Assembly (NCBI RefSeq): GCF_000247815.1
Contig: NC_021677.1
Coordinates: 47,218,864-47,282,863, forward strand
Source of the DNA: Ficedula albicollis
Taxonomy: Eukaryota; Chordata; Aves; Passeriformes; Muscicapidae
Direction: 5' to 3'
DNA: 64,000 nt
Below are positions 54,059 to 55,552 of this stretch, piece after piece. The translations under genes were made by a program, and so were the position numbers. Each line of letters starts with the position of its first letter. Position 1 is the stretch's first letter. A model generated the notes under the pieces. The model saw only the letters and a list, made by a program, of their open reading frames with translations, was not told the DNA's origin and did not search any database.

Positions 54059-55552
54059 GGGGGGGGGGGGGGGGGGGGGGGGGGGGGGGGGGGGGGGGGG
54101 GGGGGGGGGGGGGGGGGGGGGGGGGGGGGGGGGGGGGGGGGGGGGGGGGGGGGGGGGGGGGGGGGGGGGGGGGGGGGGGGGGGGGGGGGGGGGGGGGGGG
54201 GGGGGGGGGGGGGGGGGGGGGGGGGGGGGGGGGGGGGGGGGGGGGGGGGGGGGGGGGGGGGGGGGGGGGGGGGGGGGGGGGGGGGGGGGGGGGGGGGGGG
54301 GGGGGGGGGGGGGGGGGGGGGGGGGGGGGGGGGGGGGGGGGGGGGGGGGGGGGGGGGGGGGGGGGGGGGGGGGGGGGGGGGGGGGGGGGGGGGGGGGGGG
54401 GGGGGGGGGGGGGGGGGGGGGGGGGGGGGGGGGGGGGGGGGGGGGGGGGGGGGGGGGGGGGGGGGGGGGGGGGGGGGGGGGGGGGGGGGGGGGGGGGGGG
54501 GGGGGGGGGGGGGGGGGGGGGGGGGGGGGGGGGGGGGGGGGGGGGGGGGGGGGGGGGGGGGGGGGGGGGGGGGGGGGGGGGGGGGGGGGGGGGGGGGGGG
54601 GGGGGGGGGGGGGGGGGGGGGGGGGGGGGGGGGGGGGGGGGGGGGGGGGGGGGGGGGGGGGGGGGGGGGGGGGGGGGGGGGGGGGGGGGGGGGGGGGGGG
54701 GGGGGGGGGGGGGGGGGGGGGGGGGGGGGGGGGGGGGGGGGGGGGGGGGGGGGGGGGGGGGGGGGGGGGGGGGGGGGGGGGGGGGGGGGGGGGGGGGGGG
54801 GGGGGGGGGGGGGGGGGGGGGGGGGGGGGGGGGGGGGGGGGGGGGGGGGGGGGGGGGGGGGGGGGGGGGGGGGGGGGGGGGGGGGGGGGGGGGGGGGGGG
54901 GGGGGGGGGGGGGGGGGGGGGGGGGGGGGGGGGGGGGGGGGGGGGGGGGGGGGGGGGGGGGGGGGGGGGGGGGGGGGGGGGGGGGGGGGGGGGGGGGGGG
55001 GGGGGGGGGGGGGGGGGGGGGGGGGGGGGGGGGGGGGGGGGGGGGGGGGGGGGGGGGGGGGGGGGGGGGGGGGGGGGGGGGGGGGGGGGGGGGGGGGGGG
55101 GGGGGGGGGGGGGGGGGGGGGGGGGGGGGGGGGGGGGGGGGGGGGGGGGGGGGGGGGGGGGGGGGGGGGGGGGGGGGGGGGGGGGGGGGGGGGGGGGGGG
55201 GGGGGGGGGGGGGGGGGGGGGGGGGGGGGGGGGGGGGGGGGGGGGGGGGGGGGGGGGGGGGGGGGGGGGGGGGGGGGGGGGGGGGGGGGGGGGGGGGGGG
55301 GGGGGGGGGGGGGGGGGGGGGGGGGGGGGGGGGGGGGGGGGGGGGGGGGGGGGGGGGGGGGGGGGGGGGGGGGGGGGGGGGGGGGGGGGGGGGGGGGGGG
55401 GGGGGGGGGGGGGGGGGGGGGGGGGGGGGGGGGGGGGGGGGGGGGGGGGGGGGGGGGGGGGGGGGGGGGGGGGGGGGGGGGGGGGGGGGGGGGGGGGGGG
55501 GGGGGGGGGGGGGGGGGGGGGGGGGGGGGGGGGGGGGGGGGGGGGGGGGGGG
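54059..55552. other. 1494-nt uninterrupted G homopolymer (probable artefact)
   Basis: Every base from the end of a GCCGCC context to the GGCTGGAGG context is G. Genuine genomic G tracts of this length are not known to me. Two-colour Illumina chemistry calls 'no signal' as G, and GC-rich islands on avian chromosomes are notorious sequencing gaps, so a gap filled with dark-cycle poly-G is the simplest reading. Both flanks are GC-rich and CpG-rich. The run therefore replaces or masks the centre of the TTC7B CpG island, where exon 1 is expected. The long poly-Gly (plus) and poly-Pro (minus) frames across it are not genes. Confidence 0.95.

Follow-up and report, generated by a model that had tools for sequence, protein, structure and literature searches.

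What is an unbroken run of G doing beside the TTC7B gene of a bird, and does it conceal part of that gene? We addressed this question in a 64-kb stretch of DNA, hereafter the window (C13:47218864-47282863), taken from an assembly of 1,118,169,887 bases (1.118 Gb) in 21,385 contigs. Reading the whole window confirmed that positions 54059..55552 are G at 1,494 of 1,494 letters, uninterrupted and without variants, exactly as a preceding sequence-only reading had reported. This is the sole run of at least 15 G or C within the window, and there are no N letters anywhere in its 64 kb. Three spurious open reading frames (552, 584 and 596 residues, called with bacterial start codons) span the run, bearing out the warning that ORF callers would give false proteins of about 550-600 residues here.

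We scanned the DNA around the run for CpG islands in 300-base windows, requiring a GC content above 0.55 and a CpG observed/expected ratio above 0.6, and skipping those with N or with a G or C run of at least 30 bases. Passing 300-base windows were found at one place in the entire 64 kb, 55551-55950, on the right flank of the run, where GC ranged from 0.61 to 0.66 and CpG observed/expected from 0.65 to 0.81 across three of them. The sequence-only reading had described both sides as CpG-rich; the right flank is so by this test, and the left flank, whose shortness places it outside the windows covered, is so by eye. Coordinates of the features discussed here are collected in Table 1.

Table 1. 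Features of the window bearing on the G run and on TTC7B.
Feature	Position	Strand	Remark
G run, 1,494 bases	54059..55552	.	almost certainly a scaffold gap, its N placeholders probably written as G by base packing; 1,494 bases need not be its real length
CpG island, right flank, promoter side of TTC7B	55553..55950	.	three 300-base windows pass the test
CpG island, left flank, facing TTC7B intron 1 should the gap hold exon 1	53980..54058	.	bounds by eye
TTC7B exon 2	37520..37674	-	its first two bases, AT, complete a split GAT codon (residue 41 of PDB 9b9g_D)
TTC7B exon 3	36557..36727	-	approximate bounds, counted from motif position
Other TTC7B exons, reaching residue 384 of 9b9g_D	1568..22930	-	approximate bounds

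Runs of this kind pervade the assembly. G40 occurs at 22,164,925 forward and 19,504,099 reverse positions, and counting runs of at least 34 bases across the whole assembly gave 32,169 of G and 31,188 of C, or 63,357 together, a number that would include any natural long homopolymers. Computed from the G40 and run counts, the mean length of runs of at least 34 bases is 728 for G and 664 for C; by arithmetic from the same counts, the total comes to ~23.4 Mb in G runs and ~20.7 Mb in C runs, that is, ~44 Mb or 3.9% of the assembly. The longest run among those read measures 2,239 bases. Within 200 kb of C13 beside the window we found one further run, of 157 G, and no N. Given some 63,000 like runs in the assembly, the G run is therefore no peculiarity of the TTC7B promoter.

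These runs are ordered by strand. We compared the positions of G runs and C runs along C1:1-660,409, the scope of this strand-block test (C13 showed two runs only, both G), and found that 122 runs, 22 of G and 100 of C, switch strand just 7 times, as against a mean of 36 changes and a minimum of 20 in 100,000 label shuffles of the same 122 runs. Four of the seven strand-change intervals on C1 were read, three whole (L045, L046 and L047) and one about half (L048), and a true N gap lies inside every one of the four, with lengths of 429, 2,358, 613 and 2,762 bases. The arrangement of strand in blocks, with N gaps at the changes, indicates that G marks gaps within early scaffolds and N marks later joins. 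Some N letters lie where the strand does not change: at L037 a 54-C run has an N gap on either side, and at L046 a lone N is present at position 4279 in addition to the 2,358-base gap. The mechanism proposed below allows both. Comparing run strand in this manner offers a cheap way to distinguish gaps encoded as bases from genuine repeats.

At one locus on C1, the sequence interrupted by a run is recognizable. A 177-G run splits an olfactory receptor at L032, and both halves match Pfam 7tm_4, the left part reaching position 115 of the domain (E 2.6e-41) and the right part spanning positions 146-263 (E 2.1e-44). Thirty 7tm_4 positions are absent at the run, versus the 59 codons that 177 G would give, which argues that the run is not the true sequence nor, very likely, of the true length; it also leaves the receptor halves out of frame. 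Replacement of real sequence was observed in this one example, not at the window's own run. G runs cut this receptor twice (L032:1502-1678 and 2035-2872), inside the 7TM domain and again just past NPIVYG.

The flanks of the runs fall into two groups. Our flank table has 25 rows, with L002-L008, L029, L031 and L033 left out as copies of other loci, and represents 24 distinct runs, as L048 is the first run of L030; the window's run is excluded. Seven of the 24 are cut by a locus end, and 17 have both flanks. In 8 of these 17 (L024, L034, L037, L039 and the first runs of L036, L045, L046 and L047), the two flanks have 14-56 bases in common, consisting of tandem repeats, a T-tract or a C-tract. 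Tandem repeats and T- and C-tracts are usual sites of short-read gaps. The remaining nine share no stretch of at least 10 bases, and most lie in GC-rich DNA. The window's run resembles these nine repeat-free cases: no local repeat was found in 53800-54058 or 55553-56000, and a repeat as the cause of the window's gap was dropped. At L024:8490-8646, a 157-G run near exons of RPS6KA5 stands between two copies of an identical 17-base C-tract sequence, and is probably a false gap separating contigs that overlap. On C1, tandem-repeat units were seen on both sides of a 1,318-base C run (L045:93-1410) and of a 2,239-base G run (L047:82-2320).

We conclude that the run in the window is almost certainly an assembly gap whose placeholder letters became G, and not bird DNA. 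It is no real feature of the locus; it is an ordinary gap in an unusual encoding. In the mechanism that we propose, a first round of short-read scaffolding would have joined contigs over unreadable sequence by N's of estimated length, and a later program packing bases into two bits would have taken N for G. Computing the packing (c>>1)&3 yields 0 for A, 1 for C, 2 for T and 3 for G, with N also receiving 3, so that N decodes as G. Scaffolds carrying G for N would next have been ordered and oriented, with new N gaps inserted between them, and the false runs would consequently read as G in forward scaffolds and as C in reversed ones. Two-bit packing is the probable route by which N turned into G; we infer the order of the steps and a program with SOAPdenovo-style coding, SOAPdenovo being presumably a user of the (c>>1)&3 scheme. 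Alternatively, N may have been replaced by G deliberately or by a script, which would result in identical letters. The data do not separate these two routes, whose odds overlap within the reading of the run as an encoded gap, but two-bit packing requires no intervention by anyone and would produce G alone, and we regard scripted replacement as unlikely while granting it some weight.

Does the gap hold the first exon of TTC7B? Exon peptides read on the window's minus strand and joined match human TTC7B over residues 41-384 of PDB 9b9g_D (E 1.8e-205), with joint residues between exons placed by eye and partly guided by the human protein. Exon 2 opens with AT directly after TTTTTACAG, and hence one base of its first codon, together with 40 residues, belongs to exon 1, consistent with the earlier observation that exon 2 starts with two bases completing a split codon. 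On the other side of the run, and on the same strand as TTC7B, lie the last coding exons (L023:8097-9474 and in L024) of a gene that we take to be RPS6KA5, on the basis of a human query sequence. The 3′ end of this gene, near 72.1 kb, closes a bracket for exon 1 that extends from 37.7 kb of the window to ~72.1 kb (34,403 bases) and assumes that TTC7B and RPS6KA5 do not overlap.

Searching the bracket with residues 1-40 of human TTC7B did not find exon 1: the best score was 33/203, below those of all three shuffled control peptides (34, 40 and 41), whereas an exon-2 control scored 159. By tblastn against the window plus the neighbouring 200 kb, no exon-1 match had an E value below 0.095; exon 2, in contrast, was recovered at E 1.4e-30. 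The exon-1 peptide was not found in the short left flank either (53980..54058). On the strength of the peptide and tblastn searches, we rejected the placement of exon 1 in the readable flanks, in the bracket or in the 200 kb beside the window; the statement in the sequence-only reading that no upstream coding exon was found between 37.7 kb and the island agrees with these results. Within the bracket, a single gap run and a single CpG island were detected, and both lie at the site of the 1,494-base run. Because exon 1 is absent from the readable bracket, and the sole gap run and island are found there, TTC7B exon 1 very probably sits within this gap, as had been proposed from the letters alone. 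The DNA lost here would be the GC-rich TTC7B CpG island, with the promoter and the first exon (40 codons and one further base, including the start codon) inside it, and the N-terminus of TTC7B would be cut in gene models.

A second alternative accepts the gap as an artefact, its odds again overlapping those of the encoded gap, but locates exon 1 elsewhere (on an unplaced contig, in a mis-scaffolded position or past RPS6KA5) and assigns the island to another transcript. Our search for exon 1 covered the window and the 200 kb beside it, which leaves some chance that a copy lies on a different contig. However, the window's only detected island coincides with the only gap run of the 34.4-kb bracket from exon 2 to RPS6KA5, and the same CpG test found no island in 200 kb of C13 beside the window (~1.1 kb of which overlaps it). 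We therefore consider a displaced exon 1 improbable, and favor its loss within the gap.

Much less credible is the source of the letters suggested in the sequence-only reading, dark-base poly-G, in which two-colour Illumina chemistry calls G without signal and the resulting reads are assembled or used as gap filler. The GC-rich flanks, where sequencing is weak, would suit such an origin, which leads one to expect runs no longer than a read and a strand independent of scaffold. Instead, runs of 1,475-2,239 bases are longer than short reads; their strand lies in blocks on C1, and each change interval that was read contains an N gap, a pattern that reads from both strands would not give; and runs also occur in a T-tract and in minisatellites. 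This part of the earlier account had to be abandoned. Its more general proposition, that an artefact replaced unsequenced GC-rich DNA, draws support from the ~63,000 runs, the strand blocks on C1 and the split receptor. True biological poly-G, such as an expanded homopolymer, has nothing in its favor beyond the presence of the letters, and ~63,000 perfect runs amounting to 3.9% of the assembly, strand in blocks on C1 and one run standing in for 30 positions of a receptor render it vanishingly improbable. We ruled out both dark-base chemistry and true poly-G from the block pattern of strand, the lengths of the runs and the receptor that one of them splits.

An encoded gap in place of the TTC7B promoter brings nothing new to biology; its importance is one of data hygiene. 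About 44 Mb of spurious G and C enter the assembly, and false ORFs of 552-596 residues are added. Gaps that resemble called bases escape gap masking and can shift reading frames, as in the L032 receptor. On balance, we consider it likely that about 4% of this bird reference is placeholder G or C, that gene models, GC statistics and homopolymer analyses are silently biased as a result, above all in GC-rich promoters and first exons, and that the cause is a simple, bit-level one for which assemblies from the same pipeline can be screened by the strand-block test.

Among titles and the opening lines of abstracts, we found no literature describing poly-G in place of gaps. For variant calling on the collared flycatcher assembly FicAlb1.5, homopolymers of more than 10 bp were masked (PMC4878770), the excerpt at hand giving no reason. 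False G homopolymers are also familiar from Illumina reads, whose poly-G tails are trimmed by fastp (PMC6736294); as described in the available part of that paper, they reside in reads, whereas those reported here are in an assembly, reach 2,239 bases among the runs read and have their strand in blocks. SOAPdenovo2 connects contigs with wildcards (PMC3626529), and so joins them across unread sequence as we propose for this assembly, but the portion of the text that we consulted does not describe a conversion of wildcards to G. The closest parallel lies in birds themselves. Kim et al. 2022 (PMC9516821), in the sections available to us, describe how GC-rich promoters and first exons went missing from earlier short-read assemblies of birds, and the probable loss of a first exon and CpG-island promoter from GC-rich DNA at TTC7B resembles their cases of COQ6, DRD1B and CADPS2. 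In those sections the loss takes the form of gaps or missing sequence, whereas the TTC7B gap masquerades as called bases. TTC7B is very probably one more case of promoter and first-exon loss from GC-rich DNA in birds, disguised as bases.
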